From Lentilactobacillus parabuchneri DSM 5707 = NBRC 107865 (GTDB taxonomy: Bacteria; Bacillota; Bacilli; Lactobacillales; Lactobacillaceae), in NCBI RefSeq assembly GCF_001435315.1, contig NZ_AZGK01000006.1, positions 62,001-126,000 on the forward strand: a stretch of 64,000 nt of DNA, in the 5' to 3' direction. Shown here one piece after another: positions 30,330-53,589 of the stretch. The first letter of the stretch is position 1. Every line of letters starts with the position of its first letter. The notes beneath the pieces are model-generated. The model did not search any database, was not told the origin of the DNA, and saw only the letters and a program-made list of their open reading frames with translations. Made by a program: the position numbers and the translations under genes.

Positions 30330-30609
30330 AAAAATAGCGTCCCTCAGCCCACTTTCTGGACTAAGGGACGCTTTGCGCGCGTTACCACCCTATATTCGTG
30401 TATCAAAAATACACCTCGACAGTACCATATGAAATCGATACCCGGCAAAATAACGTTTGCTATCCGATCAACGGCATTCACCATTAACCTGCTCAGAGCT
30501 CATCTTCATTATTTTACAATCAGGCCTCTCACCCTGTAGCCTTTCTCTTTAGAGTGTAAAAAATAACTACTCTTCTCTTCATCGCATTTTCTCATGTAAT
30601 TCTAATGTC
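30330..30609 (-). promoter_or_regulatory. T-box riboswitch 1, probable Met specifier (ATG)
   Basis: The leader of oppA-pepT. The T-box sequence GGGTGGTAACGCG (30378-30390) precedes a strong terminator (30334-30373, AGCGTCCCTTAGTCC stem, TTTTTG). Stem I has GATGAAGAG, AGAGTAG and, on the 3' side, TGAAGATGAGCTCTGAGC. Aligned with T-box 2, the specifier reads ATG (30501-30503) followed by a purine. The T-box bases TGGT pair with a tRNA whose discriminator is A, as in tRNA-Met, and argue against the alternative GAT reading, since tRNA-Asp has G there. The codon call is an inference; the T-box itself is clear. Confidence 0.88.
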
Positions 30610-30825: not shown

Positions 30826-31743
30826 TTACAGATCAATCTTAGAAACTTCATCCAAGAACCACTTATTAAATGCGTCGGCGTCTATGTCCACGCAGACATT
30901 CGCATTGGTCTTGCCGTCGTGATAAGCACCACGGATGTCGCCGACCGTTTCGCCAATCGCTGGGCCATCTGTAATGATATCAATCCACATTTTCTTCGTG
31001 GTAATGGCTTCTGGGTGCAGCAGGTAGAAAATGGTGTTTACATCATGCATAGCGATCCCATTAGAGCTGTTATCACCATCATGAATGATAATGTCATGGA
31101 GCATCTTGCCGGTCTCATTCATGTGTTCGAGCTTGCTGAGTGAGTCCGGTGTCAACAAGGCCTTCATGGTGATGTCCAACCCAACCATGGTGATCGGAAT
31201 ACCTGAATTGTACATAATTCGAGCCGCATCCGGATCGGTGAAGACGTTGAATTCAGCTGCAGAGGTCATGTTGCCTTTGCCAAGAGACCCGCCCATCGCA
31301 ACGATTCGTTCGATATGGTCCTTGACCTCTGGGTATTCACTGAACAGCAACGCAATGTTGGTGTATGACCCGGTTGGCACCAAGGTGATCTTTTCGTCAC
31401 TGCTCATGATCGTGTCGTGCAGAGCTTCAACGGCCGTCTTGTCCAAAGGCTTTGGCAGGTCTTCAGGAAAATCATAGCCGGGCATCCCCGATTCACCATG
31501 AATTCTGGCAGCATCTTCAAATTCCTTGATCAATGGCTGTTTTGCCCCAGCAGCAACCGGCACCTGCTTGTTAAAGAAACGGACAATCTTTTGGGCATTC
31601 TTGGTTGTCTTATCAACCGTTACGTTTCCAGCAACACTGGTAATTAATTTCACGTCAATTTCAGGGTCGTTGAGCGCCATAGTTAAAGCAGCAGCGTCAT
31701 CGATTCCTGGATCAGTATCCATAATAATTTTAATGGTCATCAT
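30826..31743 (-). CDS. rihC: ribonucleoside hydrolase (RihA/B/C, IUNH family)
   Basis: A 305-residue cytosolic enzyme that hydrolyses nucleosides to base and ribose. The calcium-binding motif DTDPGIDDA stands at the N-terminus, with VPTGSYTNIALL, AMGGSLGKGNMTSAAEFNVFTDPDAARI and the late active-site part GIAMHDVNTIFYLLHPE. The ATG at 31743 follows AAAGGATTTT; an in-frame start 69 bases upstream lacks a ribosome site. It is the last gene of the nucleoside operon and would release bases for salvage. Base specificity cannot be told from sequence. Confidence 0.88.
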   Translation of the reverse strand: MMTIKIIMDTDPGIDDAAALTMALNDPEIDVKLITSVAGNVTVDKTTKNAQKIVRFFNKQVPVAAGAKQPLIKEFEDAARIHGESGMPGYDFPEDLPKPLDKTAVEALHDTIMSSDEKITLVPTGSYTNIALLFSEYPEVKDHIERIVAMGGSLGKGNMTSAAEFNVFTDPDAARIMYNSGIPITMVGLDITMKALLTPDSLSKLEHMNETGKMLHDIIIHDGDNSSNGIAMHDVNTIFYLLHPEAITTKKMWIDIITDGPAIGETVGDIRGAYHDGKTNANVCVDIDADAFNKWFLDEVSKIDL

Positions 31744-31832
31744 AAAATCCTTTCCGTACAGTATTTTAAATATCAACCGCTTACAATTAGTTCTTAACAA
31801 GAAGCGAACCACAACGTTCGCCCCTGCTATCT

Positions 31833-33146
31833 CTATAATAAGGCACTGAGCACCAAATCACACAAAAATAAAAATCCAAGTACATAAGTTGCCATCGTCA
31901 ATTCCCGTTGCCGCCCCGCCGCAATCTTTAACAGTGGGTACGCCACGAAGCCAAACGCCAAACCAGTTGAAATACTACTGGTAAATGGGATGAGGACAAC
32001 GATCAAAAACGCAGGGAACCAATCGGAAAAATCATACATATTAATCCGACTTAACTGATTCATCATCAATGCCCCGGTAATGATAATGACGGGGGCAATC
32101 GCCGCCTGTGGCACAAAGGCCAGAAGCGGAATGAAGAACAGTGAAACGGCAAACATTAAACCGGCAACAATCGATGTCAACCCAGTCCGGCCACCACTTT
32201 CAATGGCCGAGGCACTTTCGGCAGCCGCCACCGTTGGGCTGGTACCAAGAATCCCGGATAAGAAGCTGGTGACAGAGCTGGCTTGAAATGCTTTCCGAAA
32301 TTTTTGGGGATTTGGCATAATTCCTTCCAGCAATCCCATGGATTCAAAGACTAAAATCATTGTCATGGAGAAAACCGCGAGAATAAATGGAATGCTCAAC
32401 ACGTTACTGAGATCACCTTTGGCAACAATGTTGGCATACTTGCCAATATCTCCGATCCCAACTGACGGTGCCACTTGGTCCTTGATACCAAAAGCAATCC
32501 CAACAATCGATGTCACCAGAATCCCGATAAAAAAGCCACCGGTAATATTTCTGACGAATAAGAACAGTGTCAGTAACAGTCCAAACAATGCCAATAAAGT
32601 GGCTGGCTTGGTCAAATCGCCCAACGCCAGAATTGAATTCGTCCCCTGACGGATAAGCTGGGCCTTTTCAAGCCCAATTTCCACCAGGAATAAGCCGATT
32701 CCAGCGGTGATCCCCGCTTTTAAGGTGTCCGGGATTCCCTTTGCCAATACATCACTCAGCTTGGTAAACGCAATGATGACATAGATCACACTGGAAACAA
32801 TTGAGATTCCCAGCGCTTCCTGCCAGGATAGGCCCATCGCGACAACCACCGTGTAGGTGAAAAACGCGTTGACCCCCATCCCCGGCGTCAGAATCACAGG
32901 TGCATTGGCCCAAAAGCCCATGATCAAACAGCCGATAAACGAAGAAATAATTGTCGCAAACACACTTAAATCAGTGGGAATACCGGCATCTTTTAAGATC
33001 ATTGGATTCACAATGATGATGTAAGAAATCGCAAAAAAGCCAGTAATTCCGGCGATGATTTCACGTTTGACGATCGCTTTATCGCGTACAGCGTCACGAA
33101 GCCGCAGCTTATTGGCTACGGCTTCTTCTCTTTGTAACTTGTCCAA
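31833..33146 (-). CDS. NCS2-family nucleobase permease, AzgA/PbuG (adenine-guanine-hypoxanthine) type
   Basis: A 437-residue polytopic protein of the AzgA branch of NCS2. It has REIIAGITGFFAISYIIIVNPMILKDAG at the start, ILTPGMGVNAFFTYTVV, GIPDTLKAGITAGIGLFLVEIGL and SAIESGGRTGLTSIVAG. These proteins import adenine, guanine or hypoxanthine with protons. Translation begins at TTG with a weak TTAGGT upstream. It lies 30 bases after nupC and before rihC. Import or release of bases matches the hydrolase next to it. Confidence 0.87.
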   Translation of the reverse strand: MDKLQREEAVANKLRLRDAVRDKAIVKREIIAGITGFFAISYIIIVNPMILKDAGIPTDLSVFATIISSFIGCLIMGFWANAPVILTPGMGVNAFFTYTVVVAMGLSWQEALGISIVSSVIYVIIAFTKLSDVLAKGIPDTLKAGITAGIGLFLVEIGLEKAQLIRQGTNSILALGDLTKPATLLALFGLLLTLFLFVRNITGGFFIGILVTSIVGIAFGIKDQVAPSVGIGDIGKYANIVAKGDLSNVLSIPFILAVFSMTMILVFESMGLLEGIMPNPQKFRKAFQASSVTSFLSGILGTSPTVAAAESASAIESGGRTGLTSIVAGLMFAVSLFFIPLLAFVPQAAIAPVIIITGALMMNQLSRINMYDFSDWFPAFLIVVLIPFTSSISTGLAFGFVAYPLLKIAAGRQRELTMATYVLGFLFLCDLVLSALL

Positions 33147-33175: not shown

Positions 33176-34453
33176 TTACCAAACGAACAGACCAACGATT
33201 CCGGCAGACATCAAGGATACCAAGATACCTGAGAGAAGCATGGTTCCAACGTTTTTACTGATCAAATCATTCTTTTCCTTGTCAACCAAGCCCTTGAAGG
33301 CACCGATAATCATACCGGTGGTTGAGAAGTTGGCGAATGATGTGATGAAGACAGTTAATTGTGCTTGGTAGTGAGCTGGGAAGATGCTGGGGTTGTTGAT
33401 CGTTCCGGCGATCTTTCCCATAACAACGAATTCATTGGTAACCAACTTCATACCCATGAATTGTGCGAACTGGAATGCGTGGCTAACATCCAGACCCATC
33501 AACCATGCAAATGGGAACATGATGATTCCTAGAATATGTTCCAATGACAGCCATGGGTTGAATAATGCCAAAATCTTGTCAATCAAAGCAGCCAAAGCAA
33601 CGAAGGCGATAACGTTGGCAGCAATGATTAAGATCAAACGACCGGCACCAAGAATTGAGTCGCCAAGAAATGAGAAGTATGGTTCGCGTTTCCCATTTGC
33701 TTGAACATCGCCGGCTTCAACAGCGGCTTCGCTTGAACCTGAACCGCCCATTTTGGCAACCGTATCTTCTTCAGGCGTTACCTTAACGGGGTTCAACATA
33801 CTGGTAATAATCAGGGCGTTTAAAACGTTCAATGGAACGGCAGTCAAAACAAATTGACCTGGAACCATTTGCGTATAAGCACCGATGATTGAAGCAGTGA
33901 CACAAGACATGGACATCAGAGCCAAAGTCAAGTTACGCTTTGCGGACATTTGCTTTAATTGAAGTGATGAAACGGCAAGTGCTTCAGTGTTACCTAAGAA
34001 CATCATTTCAACGGCAAAGAATGATTCGAACTTTGGAGCGCCGGTAACAAATGAAAGTGCACGGCCGACCCATTTGATAATCCATGGCAATACTCCGATA
34101 TATGTAAGAGTATCAAACAATGGAACAATCATTAAGATTGGCAGTAAGGCACTGGTCACAAAGTTCATTGATTTGGCAGTTCCACCAAATTGTGGCGTTA
34201 CCCAGTTTGGCAAGGCAAAATTAATTCCTTGATAGGCAACTTGAACCAACCAGTTGAATCCATCGGCAGCGGCCTTAACGGCGTCACGGCCCCAGGCAAA
34301 ACTCGTCAAAATCCATGCAAGCACAAGGTTAATGACTAAAACGACCCCAACGGAACGCCAGTTGATACCTTTTTTGTTATTTGAAAACAAGTAGGCAATT
34401 CCAAGGTATACGGCAACACCCAGGATATTAACCAGCAAATATGATAATTGCAT
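33176..34453 (-). CDS. nupC: CNT-family nucleoside transporter (NupC type)
   Basis: A 425-residue concentrative nucleoside transporter. It shows the N-terminal helix YLLVNILGVAVYLGIAYLFSNNKKGINWR, the core PILMIVPLFDTLTYIGVLPWIIKWVG, FFAVEMMFLGNTEALAVSSLQLKQMS, NEFVVMGKIAG and the terminal SFANFSTTGMIIGAFKGLVDKEK that are characteristic of CNT proteins. It uses a proton or sodium gradient. It is the second gene of the nucleoside operon, 122 bases after the phosphopentomutase-like gene. Purine or pyrimidine preference is unclear. Confidence 0.9.
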   Translation of the reverse strand: MQLSYLLVNILGVAVYLGIAYLFSNNKKGINWRSVGVVLVINLVLAWILTSFAWGRDAVKAAADGFNWLVQVAYQGINFALPNWVTPQFGGTAKSMNFVTSALLPILMIVPLFDTLTYIGVLPWIIKWVGRALSFVTGAPKFESFFAVEMMFLGNTEALAVSSLQLKQMSAKRNLTLALMSMSCVTASIIGAYTQMVPGQFVLTAVPLNVLNALIITSMLNPVKVTPEEDTVAKMGGSGSSEAAVEAGDVQANGKREPYFSFLGDSILGAGRLILIIAANVIAFVALAALIDKILALFNPWLSLEHILGIIMFPFAWLMGLDVSHAFQFAQFMGMKLVTNEFVVMGKIAGTINNPSIFPAHYQAQLTVFITSFANFSTTGMIIGAFKGLVDKEKNDLISKNVGTMLLSGILVSLMSAGIVGLFVW

Positions 34454-34577: not shown

Positions 34578-35408
34578 TTAACTTAATTCATCTAAGAAGC
34601 TGTGGCCAACGGATTCGTCCGATGGCTCGACGCCAAATATTTGGGCTGTGGTTGCCCCAATATCGGCCAGTGTCCGGCGAATGCCAAGCGACTTTCCCTC
34701 AGGCTTGGCAGGCATGTAGGCAATCAGTGGTAAATACTCGCGAGTTGGGACAACGTCTACTGTTGGATCGTTGGCAAAGGTTGACGTAATCATCAGCAAA
34801 TCTGTGCTGTACAACTCCCGCATCAAACGAGAAAGGTGCTGATCAACCACGTTTAAAACATCGATGCATCCCTTCCCATCAGCTTCCAAAGCCTTTTGCT
34901 GCAAATCCAACAGCCTAAAGTAAAGCAGACCGTTGTTTGGCGCAATAACCTGTTGGTGAAGCTCATTAAATCCAGCTTCATCCGAGTTAACCGGGATGAT
35001 CTGAGCCATGTTTTGATTAGACAGATAGCTCAGATAATTGGTAATCAAGATCGAATTAACACCAAGAAGTGCGACAATCGAGTCAATGACATTGGTCGTC
35101 CGGATATCAGTCTGGTAATCAAACATTTCCCGCAGACCGCTCAATGCAACATTGTTCTGACTCTTGAGACGAATTTTGCCATAATAGCCAATTGGGGCCT
35201 CAACTGGTGGGAGGCCAACGACTGGATCGTTGGACCGAATATTCCCAAGTCCGAGGCGGCTCAGTGCCGGCAACGCAAAGTTGGGGTCGGCAAACCTGGC
35301 AATATGGCCAAGCGTGTCGGCGCCAACGGAGTTAAACCGATTGGCGTCACTGGCTTCCCCGATCCCCAGTCCAGCAAAGTCAATTACAATTACCCGACGA
35401 AAGTCCAT
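34578..35408 (-). CDS. degenerate phosphopentomutase (DeoB) homologue, probably not catalytic
   Basis: A 276-residue alkaline-phosphatase-superfamily protein that follows DeoB at both ends: VIVIDFAGLGIGEASDANRFNSVGADTLGHIA and LGIRRTLADIGATTAQIFGVE. It is about 110 residues shorter, in the region of the cap domain. Key sites are lost. The Thr-bearing GKDTTTGHWE reads NNVALSGLRE (85-94), the metal motif TADHGNDPT reads TSTFANDPT (208-216), and the His before TRE is Pro221. The frame is open and the fold-defining parts are kept, so it is not an obvious decaying pseudogene. It opens the nucleoside operon, where a true DeoB would use ribose phosphate. Confidence 0.75.
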   Translation of the reverse strand: MDFRRVIVIDFAGLGIGEASDANRFNSVGADTLGHIARFADPNFALPALSRLGLGNIRSNDPVVGLPPVEAPIGYYGKIRLKSQNNVALSGLREMFDYQTDIRTTNVIDSIVALLGVNSILITNYLSYLSNQNMAQIIPVNSDEAGFNELHQQVIAPNNGLLYFRLLDLQQKALEADGKGCIDVLNVVDQHLSRLMRELYSTDLLMITSTFANDPTVDVVPTREYLPLIAYMPAKPEGKSLGIRRTLADIGATTAQIFGVEPSDESVGHSFLDELS

Positions 35409-35536
35409 CAGAAACTTCCTTTCCAGATTAAATAAAGCTTTAGAAAAAAATAATCTATGTGAATAGAATACCGCATTCAGGAAACACCTGTAAATAAAAA
35501 TCGAGAAATGACAATAAGTAATACGGTTTACTATAC

Positions 35537-35555
35537 TGATTGCGCTTTCATTATA
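35537..35555 (-). promoter_or_regulatory. cre site and -10 of the nucleoside operon
   Basis: On the minus strand TGAAAGCGCAATCA (35537-35550) matches cre at 13 of 14 positions and begins at the last base of TATAAT (35550-35555). An alternative promoter, TTGATA-18-TATAGT, would enclose the cre. In both cases CcpA binding would block the promoter. Confidence 0.55.
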
Positions 35556-35590
35556 TCAAAGCAGATCGGGTACGTAAATAGGAAATTTGG

Positions 35591-36130
35591 AAGAGTGTGA
35601 CGAGACCCGGTTAGACTCCGGAGCACAAGTTAAAAGGCTTAGTGATGAACGAATCGTTCGTCGCTGAGCCTTTTGGCTTGTGTAGTAGGAGTCTGGGTCG
35701 TCGGAACACGTTTTCCACTAGGTAAGAGAGGAAACACAAAACGACAATTTACACCAAATTTGAAAGAGTGTGACGAGCAACGGGTGATGCGGTTTCTAAG
35801 GTAACTTTGGTTTAAACCCCGTTTTTGGGTTTGAAACAAAGTTACCTTAGAAGTTAGCATCAGTTGCGTCGGAACACGTTTCCACTAGGCAAAAGAGGAA
35901 ACGCAAAGCGAAAATTTACACCGAGTTTGAAAGAGTGTGACGAGTGACGAGCAACGCGTGATGCGGTTTCTAAGGTAACTTTGGTTTAAACCCTGCCTTT
36001 GGGTTTGATTCAAAGTTAGCTTAGAAGTTAGCATCAGGCCCGTCGTCCACAGGACTTTTGTGGTCGTCTCCGAGTAGGCTAGACACTGCACTTCGTTTGT
36101 GGTCGTCGGAACACGTTCCACTAGGTAAAA
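35591..36130 (+). repeat. hairpin-repeat locus 4: tandem array of three units
   Basis: Three tandem units of about 170-200 bases start at 35591, 35765 and 35931, each with AGAGTGTGACGAG and ending GTCGGAACACGTTTCC, then a tail like CACTAGGTAAGAGAGGAAAC. Units 2 and 3 share the CTAAGGTAACTTTGG core hairpin. Unit 1 has an unrelated core (AAAAGGCTTAG / CTGAGCCTTTT, with ACCCGGTTAGACTCC / GGAGTCTGGGT outside). Unit 3 carries an extra CTAGACACTGCACTTCG block also present at 43860 and, diverged, at 9930. The long ORFs here are by-products of the repeats. Confidence 0.8.
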
Positions 36131-36141
36131 AAAGAAAACAC

Positions 36142-36190
36142 AAAAAAATAGGATTTAAACTCGCTTTGAAACTGCAAGTCTAAATCCTAT
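36142..36190 (-). terminator. terminator of the candidate long RNA
   Basis: On the minus strand ATAGGATTTA-ACT pairs with AGT-TAAATCCTAT across a 15-base loop and is followed by TTTTTTT. Confidence 0.8.
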
Positions 36191-36754
36191 ACGGAAGGGA
36201 ACTTTGGGGTTAATACCCACTTTACTAATAACTTAATGTCTTATCGCCTCAATCTAACTATTTGTTGATCCAACTGCCGCAAACTTTAATCATTTTCACG
36301 TTTTTACTTTATTGATAAATTTGCCGTGTGACCAACATTCGGTGCTGCGTGAAACTATACTACTTGGAACAACTGCTTGGAACATTAAATCTTGGTACGT
36401 GGTACTTGAAACTGTGAATCATTGGAACTTTCATCAACTTGATATCACATCAATTTGATATTCGATTGAATCTCTCAGATCCACTACAAGTGACCTCTGT
36501 ACATAACCCTTTTCAATTACTCCATCAGGTTTTCAATAGCGAATCATCGAACTCATATCTGAACATTTGTGATTCATAACATTATATTCAAACACTTAAT
36601 CACCTGAATTAACCTTCTGTTATTTTAACCTGTAACAATTTGAAACTCTTTGAATCGTTGAAACAATCGGCTAAATAAAACATCTATCGAACTTCCATGC
36701 TTCTAAATGAATCGTGAACCTCAAACTCTTAAAACTTAAAATAAACAACTATGC

Positions 36755-36770
36755 GTTCTACACGTGAAAC
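36755..36770. promoter_or_regulatory. parS-like sequence
   Basis: TTCTACACGTGAAACA agrees with parS (TGTTTCACGTGAAACA) at 13 of 16 positions, with the half CACGTGAAACA-type core ACGTGAAACA intact. It lies inside the candidate RNA unit, about 10 kb from parAB. It could be a weak ParB site or chance. Confidence 0.25.
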
Positions 36771-36893
36771 ATTTGAAAATAATCCTGTGACATTACAACA
36801 TATGAATCTAGGATCAGAGAACATTCAAAGCAGGTTGGAAACCCCTGGCACTTCGAACTTCCTTTCCCTTCCTTGACTATATAATATCATATC

Positions 36894-36907
36894 TGGAAGC
36901 GTTTGCA
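36894..36907. promoter_or_regulatory. cre site at the promoter of the candidate long RNA
   Basis: TGGAAGCGTTTGCA matches the cre consensus at 13 of 14 positions. It overlaps the proposed -35 (TTGCAA) of the minus-strand unit and lies just below a TATAAT at 36911-36916. Catabolite control is inferred. Confidence 0.45.
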
Positions 36908-36968
36908 AGTATTATATCTGCTTTTTCTAAATTTATTTCGGAACGTTACATTGACAACTATTTGGGCA

Positions 36969-53277: not shown

Positions 53278-53484
53278 AAAAGTACTCCTCCTTTACAAAA
53301 CTTAACAAATATCTACTCCTTGGGTACATTTTCATTATAAAGGACCTATACTTTCGAACTCAATTTTAAACTCTGGAATCAAATGACTTTCAATTTTGAT
53401 TCTCCAGACACTCATTCACCACTTGACTTTTAGCCGGTTTCCTCGTTTAATACAGATGTACAAATAACTTAATTAATCATTTTG

Positions 53485-53556
53485 TGGTCTGGGGTGCTGA
53501 AAAGCTGAGACAAACCCATGGAACCTGACGCAGTTAGTACTGCCGTAGGGAGACCA
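53485..53556 (+). promoter_or_regulatory. TPP (THI-box) riboswitch
   Basis: P1 is TGGTCT / AGACCA. Between them lie GGGGTGCTG, GCTGAGA, ACCCATGGAACCTGA and CAGTTAGTACTGCCGTAGGG, the conserved pieces of the thiamine pyrophosphate aptamer. A strong terminator hairpin follows at 53590-53621, so it should shut off tenA by premature termination when TPP is abundant. Confidence 0.93.
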
Positions 53557-53589
53557 TTTTAGTCAATCAGTTTCTGTGAAAACGACTGA

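Follow-up and report, generated by a model that had tools for sequence, protein, structure and literature searches.

A long stretch bounded by a promoter and a terminator lies on the minus strand of the Lentilactobacillus parabuchneri window (the whole stretch of 64,000 nucleotides that was analysed), and raises the question of whether it encodes an independent structured RNA and what such an RNA could do. Genome comparison gave good support to an uncatalogued RNA gene of 500–750 nt in three genera of lactobacilli, with a fold that appears to have been kept by evolution. The best overall explanation, to which we assign a probability of about 65%, is a stand-alone, cre-controlled, large structured non-coding RNA that would act in trans in a switch to nucleoside or pentose use, its role being suggested by its neighbours and its predicted control.

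Promoter, cre site and terminator of the predicted RNA gene

The gene and its control elements are as follows.
36142..36878, minus strand: predicted RNA gene, about 737 nt, placed by promoter and terminator positions, homologues in three genera and a fold z of −3.2
36881..36908, minus strand: extended −10 promoter, TTGCAA-16-TATTAT, kept across an alignment of 21 Lentilactobacillus loci
36894..36907, minus strand: cre site TGCAAACGCTTCCA, which overlaps the −35 box
36142..36190, minus strand: intrinsic terminator (inverted repeat I4), 17-bp stem followed by T7

The first-pass annotation had described this promoter, and it is indeed there, with the −35 box TTGCAA at 36903-36908, a spacing of 16 nt and the −10 box TATTAT at 36881-36886 preceded by TG, which would put the transcription start near 36876-36878; the region is AT-rich and contains 11 promoter-like sites versus 3.7 in shuffles, i.e. 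such sites are common there. The cre site reported to overlap it is likewise present, with its score of 13/14 corrected to 14/14 against the cre consensus TGNAANCGNWNNCA. At the other end, the terminator that had been called strong has a stem with 88% complementarity and a 9-nt loop, and the automated terminator scan made no call at the RNA 3′-end because it permits loops of at most 8. The longest same-strand ORF within the gene has 31 codons, in agreement with the earlier statement that none of 60 codons occurs. The 737-nt RNA folded better than 20/20 of its dinucleotide shuffles, and comparable tests yielded z −2.4 for the homologue of L. brevis (1/100 shuffles as good) and z −3.1 for a Secundilactobacillus homologue (0/20 as good). 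The 737-nt fold and the recurrence of promoter, cre, end pairing and terminator in homologues are together more than chance.

Homologues were compared in a set of 57 distinct sequences, selected for having the cre-bearing promoter, the core and the end helix at once; four loci lacking a readable 5′-end (L009, L097, L100 and L113) were left out of it, rows L009 and L015 having been dropped earlier, in alignment work. A strict cre match was found in 53 of the 57 and 13 of 14 positions in the remaining four, with the 14-mer at the same distance before the start in all 57, a looser cre pattern having belonged to the selection of this set; 5′-ends aligned without the cre filter show the same placement. 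A conserved cre over the promoter, the sequence mark of the CcpA regulon, is thus found here. Lactic acid bacteria offer a parallel in their 6S RNA, where a cre covering the −35 region is regarded as inhibitory and where, in L. lactis, the RNA rises about 3-fold without CcpA (excerpts of PMC8414754). By analogy, the RNA gene would apparently be switched off by CcpA when a good sugar is present: judging from its position, CcpA on the cre site would cover the −35 box and block transcription under preferred sugar.

Distribution, covariation and coding potential in three genera

A DNA search of the genus Lentilactobacillus found the locus in 22/24 genomes, counting the source genome; conservation was highest in the promoter/5′ block and the 3′ block. 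The 3′ core of 21 loci (alignment A1) was built into a covariance model, R1, which at E 0.001 found 39/397 genomes of the family; all 39 belong to Lentilactobacillus, Levilactobacillus or Secundilactobacillus and match over the full model. A second model, R2, built from 41 sequences, matched 58/397 strongly, with E-values no worse than 2.6e-7: 21 Lentilactobacillus, 24 Levilactobacillus and 13 Secundilactobacillus genomes. The 3′-core model matched 21/24 Lentilactobacillus genomes, and genus-level searches matched 35/35 of Levilactobacillus, L. brevis among them, and 13/15 of Secundilactobacillus. Among the 397 family genomes, no convincing match fell outside these genera: 13 further weak R2 matches (E 0.003–0.05) are taken as chance, and the core motif is absent from the three of these 13 that were inspected (L089-L091), as well as from a weak match of the order-wide search (G425, L077). 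That search of 295 genomes gave only one other strong score, in another family (G530, E 2.7e-7), which has no GAGGCGAT, cre or end helix, resembles by eye the complement of a protein gene and was rejected as a false positive, so that R2 E-values are not conservative. A degenerate DNA pattern, derived from the three genera and little informative on diverged relatives elsewhere, found 38 stretches in the named genome collection: 14 in Lentilactobacillus, 12 in Levilactobacillus, 9 in Secundilactobacillus, two in Lactobacillus sp. records that carry Levilactobacillus-type sequence, and one in Rhodothermales, which was taken as chance.

The gene occurs in one copy per genome, with two genomes having two. 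Two Lentilactobacillus (G012, G020) and two Secundilactobacillus genomes (G042, G078) gave no model match, and in G001 (L075) all of the RNA except some 115 nt is gone, the core included, while the promoter and the downstream phosphopentomutase-like gene, first in the operon described below, are kept; given these five genomes, the RNA is dispensable in places. In genomes that gave no RNA match, the sequence before the phosphopentomutase-like gene showed no diverged RNA (13 such stretches were fetched and 12, all but the 268-base L152, searched for core motif and cre, with the last 950 nt viewed); the GGCGAT-type strings of L154 and L157 lie within ORFs, and one cre-like site was seen in L151. 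There was no sign of a mobile origin in the sequences searched: a narrow RNA-core pattern had 0 matches in viral contigs, and blastn with the window's own RNA sequence as query gave nothing at E 1e-5 among plasmids and phages.

The conserved parts of the fold, as placed in the window, are as follows.
36864..36872, minus strand: P1 5′ arm GGAAGGGAA, pairing with 36193-36201
36827..36846, minus strand: P2 5′ arms AGGGGTT and CCTGCTTT, from RNAalifold of 22 Lentilactobacillus sequences
36264..36336, minus strand: 3′ core stem, outer GTTGGTC/GATCAAC and inner GCAAAT/GTTTGC, 13 pairs, all of them changed on both sides in at least one sequence
36234..36250, minus strand: conserved GAGGCGATAAGACATTA, within which GAGGCGAT is invariant
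36206..36223, minus strand: P2 3′ arms AAAGTGGG and AACCCC, from the same RNAalifold
36193..36201, minus strand: P1 3′ arm TTCCCTTCC, exact complement of 36864-36872

The 9-bp end complement, noticed earlier from the letters, is exact, and an end-to-end complement run of at least 9 arose in 3/5000 mononucleotide shuffles. Over the 57 distinct homologues, 448/456 P1 pairs were standard, with compensatory changes across genera on both sides at 4/8 positions, namely G-C to A-U at pairs 1, 5 and 6 and A-U to U-A at pair 3. The Watson-Crick run between a locus’s own ends averaged 7.9 nt over 40 loci (lowest 5, in the bulged L011), and ends mixed across genera gave mean runs of 4.1–5.6 nt with single combinations up to 8; cross-genus P1 combinations are still 88.9% standard, only some positions differing. 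Judged by these compensated changes, the P1 end pairing is real. Homologues keeping neither end pairing nor terminator, which had been named as telling against the gene, were not what we found: the pairing is compensated, and a terminator-like hairpin with a T-run follows P1 in 56 of the 57, L023 having no recognisable one there.

As to the 3′ core, GAGGCGAT is present in 41/41 model-aligned rows, which are model matches not chosen by the motif. In alignment A3 (41 rows, fitted to the structure, which it so favours), the 16 tested pairs were 93.7% standard versus 28.7–52.4% when the partner was slid by 1–3 columns, two-sided changes occurred at 14/16 pairs, and covariation reached 0.543 versus 0.212 in shuffles, with 0/500 shuffles attaining the observed value. 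The GGG/CCC hairpin, helix 4, is the weak part: each of its pairs has 11 gaps, and one has 9 cells that do not pair. In a held-out test, with both halves taken from the same structure-informed alignment, the structure from half of the clusters paired 83.3–92.1% of cells in the unseen half versus 33.3–49.7% when slid, and column shuffles reached means of 80.4–90.5%, i.e. an excess of only 1–3 points; two-sided-change cells numbered 20–47 versus shuffle means of 4.7–21.7, above the top of 200 shuffles in 6/6 tests.

Genus-by-genus folding returned P1 and a long-range helix P2 in all three genera, P2 joining a 5′ stretch to the stretch after GAGGCGAU. It reads GGGGTT/AACCCC with CCTGCTTT/AAAGTGGG in the window, GATTTCCGTTTTG/CGAAACGGGAATT in Levilactobacillus and CCCGTTTTGTAGAT/GTTTACGAAACGGG in Secundilactobacillus; no two-sided changes occurred within either of the latter two genera, and their equivalence as one helix across the three is inferred from position. 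A further helix, P1b, adjoins P1 in the Levi- and Secundilactobacillus foldings, and the central domains differ between genera and are covered by separate alignments. In the alignments, P1 and the core are shown to be supported by covariation, as the proposed check on related genomes had sought, and P2 by recurrence in three genera. With its own promoter, its own terminator and a conserved fold, the locus has what marks an independent non-coding RNA gene, and comparative genomics strongly supports the view first proposed from the letters, i.e. an independent long structured RNA gene whose fold would be under selection and whose conserved promoter is overlapped by a cre.

In Levilactobacillus homologues (e.g. 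L081 and L083), the pre-terminator 3′ arm reads ATCACAACCTCCTTTC or near it. We take this to be much like the 16S rRNA 3′-end (GGATCACCTCCTTTC), possibly by coincidence.

With regard to a small-peptide messenger, a dual-function RNA or the remnant of a gene in decay, a survey of ORFs with 15 codons or more did find shared ones. All 22 Levilactobacillus sequences have an ORF of 22–24 codons running from ATGAGGCGAT across P2, P1 and the terminator start; it encodes a basic peptide (M-R-R-L-...-L-L-S-...), and the length differences among its three classes are multiples of three. Further ORFs are shared by 12/13 Secundilactobacillus sequences (17–22 codons, at the 3′-end) and 14/22 Lentilactobacillus sequences (18–20 codons, mid-RNA). 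No ORF is common to the three genera, however, and Lenti- and Secundilactobacillus usually have TTG AGG CGA and then a stop where the Levilactobacillus ORF starts (by eye). That ORF has no third-position bias (variable sites 14/11/12, 2/5/6 and 1/2/2 by codon position in the three length classes) and, by reading, no clear Shine-Dalgarno upstream, and the base pairs evolve by compensation. The shared ORFs are read as by-products of RNA conservation, which is not proof against a peptide; a coding explanation of any of these kinds is improbable.

The nucleoside operon and the proposed mode of action

The first-pass finding did not include a linkage to a nucleoside operon, which in the window follows the RNA gene on the same strand.
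35583..36144, no strand assigned: spacer from the RNA terminator to the operon, with hairpin-bearing repeat copies (families D1-D4, I1, I2)
35465..35550, minus strand: the operon's own promoter-like region, comprising TTTACA-18-TATTCT (35494-35465) and the cre TGAAAGCGCAATCA (35537-35550)
34578..35408, minus strand: short metalloenzyme, 276 aa (Pfam PF01676), phosphopentomutase-like on our reading of the sequence
33176..34453, minus strand: NupC-type nucleoside transporter (Pfam PF07662/PF01773)
31833..33146, minus strand: permease of the NCS2 xanthine/uracil family (Pfam PF00860)
30826..31812, minus strand: nucleoside hydrolase (Pfam PF01156)

In the window and 20 flanking stretches chosen to span the three genera, with operon genes assigned by Pfam in the window and by blastp cluster elsewhere, the NupC, NCS2 permease and nucleoside hydrolase genes lie downstream on the same strand in 20/21 places, and the short phosphopentomutase-like gene leads the operon in 16/21 (the ORF finder gave none in L133, L137, L144, L146 and L148). 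Small ORFs stand between RNA and operon in L130, L132 and L134, the upstream neighbours of the RNA vary by genus, and the phosphopentomutase-like gene is also present in other genera, there with no match to the RNA. In L. buchneri CD034, nupC, a xanthine/uracil permease and rihB have consecutive locus numbers and were jointly down-regulated in one comparison, according to excerpts of PMC4521753.

Such synteny would suit a giant cis-acting leader that senses a metabolite or protein and whose terminator sets read-through into the operon. Some riboswitch-terminator designs place the closing helix directly before the terminator, and P1 ends just there. Against a leader, the distance from terminator to next called ORF is 24–733 nt in the 21 places (the 24 of L135 probably reflecting an over-long ORF call), and hairpin repeats fill the window's spacer; the window operon has its own promoter-like sites and cre, and promoter-like sequences were read by eye before the operon in other loci too. 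Moreover, both second copies lie away from the operon, that of G007 (L137, the one exception to the linkage), whose next gene is convergent, and that of G005 (L163, judged from the ORF list only). These two copies argue for an independent, trans-acting RNA, and we consider the leader unlikely. Two observations support action in trans, namely that copies exist apart from the operon and that the window operon is preceded by promoter-like sites and a cre; the strict synteny counts against it.

In the preferred, trans-acting explanation, lifting of repression would lead to an RNA of 500–750 nt ending at its own terminator, which would close via P1 and P2 and so hold the peripheral domains and the conserved 3′ core with GAGGCGAU. 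The folded RNA would act in trans, with a complex of RNA and protein as its likeliest form and an RNA-only assembly as the next choice, and could serve the switch to nucleoside or pentose use, a role proposed because its gene mostly neighbours the nucleoside operon, which has its own cre in the window. The wider proposal of a new large-RNA class in three genera, linking carbon catabolite control to nucleoside use via a folded machine in trans with a GAGGCGAU core, is tentative and falls slightly short of an even chance. The RNA would bring with it a predicted on/off switch (preferred versus poor sugar) and a predicted pathway (nucleosides); it was found in each of the 35 Levilactobacillus genomes searched and in the majority of those of the other two genera, so its function is testable in food bacteria, in which members with a missing or broken RNA are natural comparisons and G001 a ready-made comparison strain.

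Several other elements were observed in these surroundings. The spacer repeats are imperfect copies of a strong hairpin with borders GTGACGAG and CGTCGGAACACGTT, and may resemble the cruciform supermotifs of L. plantarum (excerpts of PMC5643018). A short element, CCTTGGCAGGGG, occurs in L056, L057, L132, L134, L144-L148, L150, L151, L153, L154, L157, L159, L161 and L162, also in genera without a large-RNA match; in loci read by eye, a −10-like box immediately precedes it and terminator-like hairpins follow, all ahead of the nucleoside operon. Six of its loci gave two sub-threshold Rfam matches, neither at the element, which is a candidate small RNA or attenuated leader. A stretch GGAATCAAT...CTCCAAAC(A/T)AGAA...TTGATTCAT with complementary borders, conserved in Levilactobacillus and two Secundilactobacillus, lies upstream of the RNA in L078, L082 and L088 and is also found in L150 and L151; in L078 it had no Rfam match up to E 1. 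Elsewhere in the window, a T-box leader (30361-30591, minus strand), preceding an oligopeptide-binding-type protein gene (PF00496), and a TPP riboswitch (53480-53568, plus strand) scored above gathering.

Comparison with known structured RNAs

The RNA locus matched no family of Rfam 15 when the whole library was applied to the window, to a sub-threshold scan of the region and to 8 homologous loci. The recommended check against GOLLD and ROOL found neither. ROOL (RF03087) was absent from the gathering matches of the window, from 12 sub-threshold region matches up to E 5 and from the 8 homologous loci; its model had no match in the own genome either, in a search in which no control genome matched and which by itself therefore says little. 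GOLLD and OLE, whose models we take to belong to the Rfam 15 library, had no match in the whole-library scans. The 6S RNA (RF00013) matched neither in the region nor, at E 0.001 or below, genome-wide, the Lactococcus lactis control being matched. In the retrieved portions of the open-licence PMC literature, no description of the RNA was recognised, and the main-text portions of the L. buchneri CD034 RNA-seq paper (PMC4521753) do not contain "non-coding", "intergenic", "sRNA" or "ncRNA".

Few large structured bacterial RNAs are known, and the function of most is open; RNA-only assemblies are known for three other large ones (excerpts of PMC12286853). An assembly of the GOLLD/ROOL/OLE sort, with copies forming an oligomer or cage, would fit the similar size, the paired ends, the long-range helices and the single copy in all but two genomes with two, and has against it that no homology to an Rfam model was found. 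As a special case of trans action it overlaps the best explanation; on its own it has a low probability.

Set beside known systems, the predicted RNA is like T-box and riboswitch leaders in being a structured RNA that ends in a terminator upstream of an operon, but it is far larger, the window operon has its own promoter-like sites, and second copies are detached. With the 6S RNA of lactic acid bacteria it has in common that a non-coding RNA is thought to be repressed by CcpA via a cre over the −35 region (excerpts of PMC8414754). At about 737 nt, it differs from 6S RNA, which has about 200 nt. The lncRNA of the Lactobacillus salivarius megaplasmid is presumably a ROOL. It is described in excerpts of PMC5643018 as about 500–600 nt, non-coding and extensively folded by prediction, and in all of this, as in its occurrence in lactobacilli, the predicted RNA is like it. 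Unlike ROOL and this lncRNA, the RNA here has no Rfam match, stands beside a nucleoside operon and has a promoter with predicted cre control, and the window's RNA is unmatched in the phage and plasmid sets. It shares with GOLLD and OLE the character of a large, ornate bacterial RNA with long-range helices (as characterised in excerpts of PMC12286853), whereas it matches no Rfam family. GOLLD and ROOL are at most of the same broad kind as the RNA described here.
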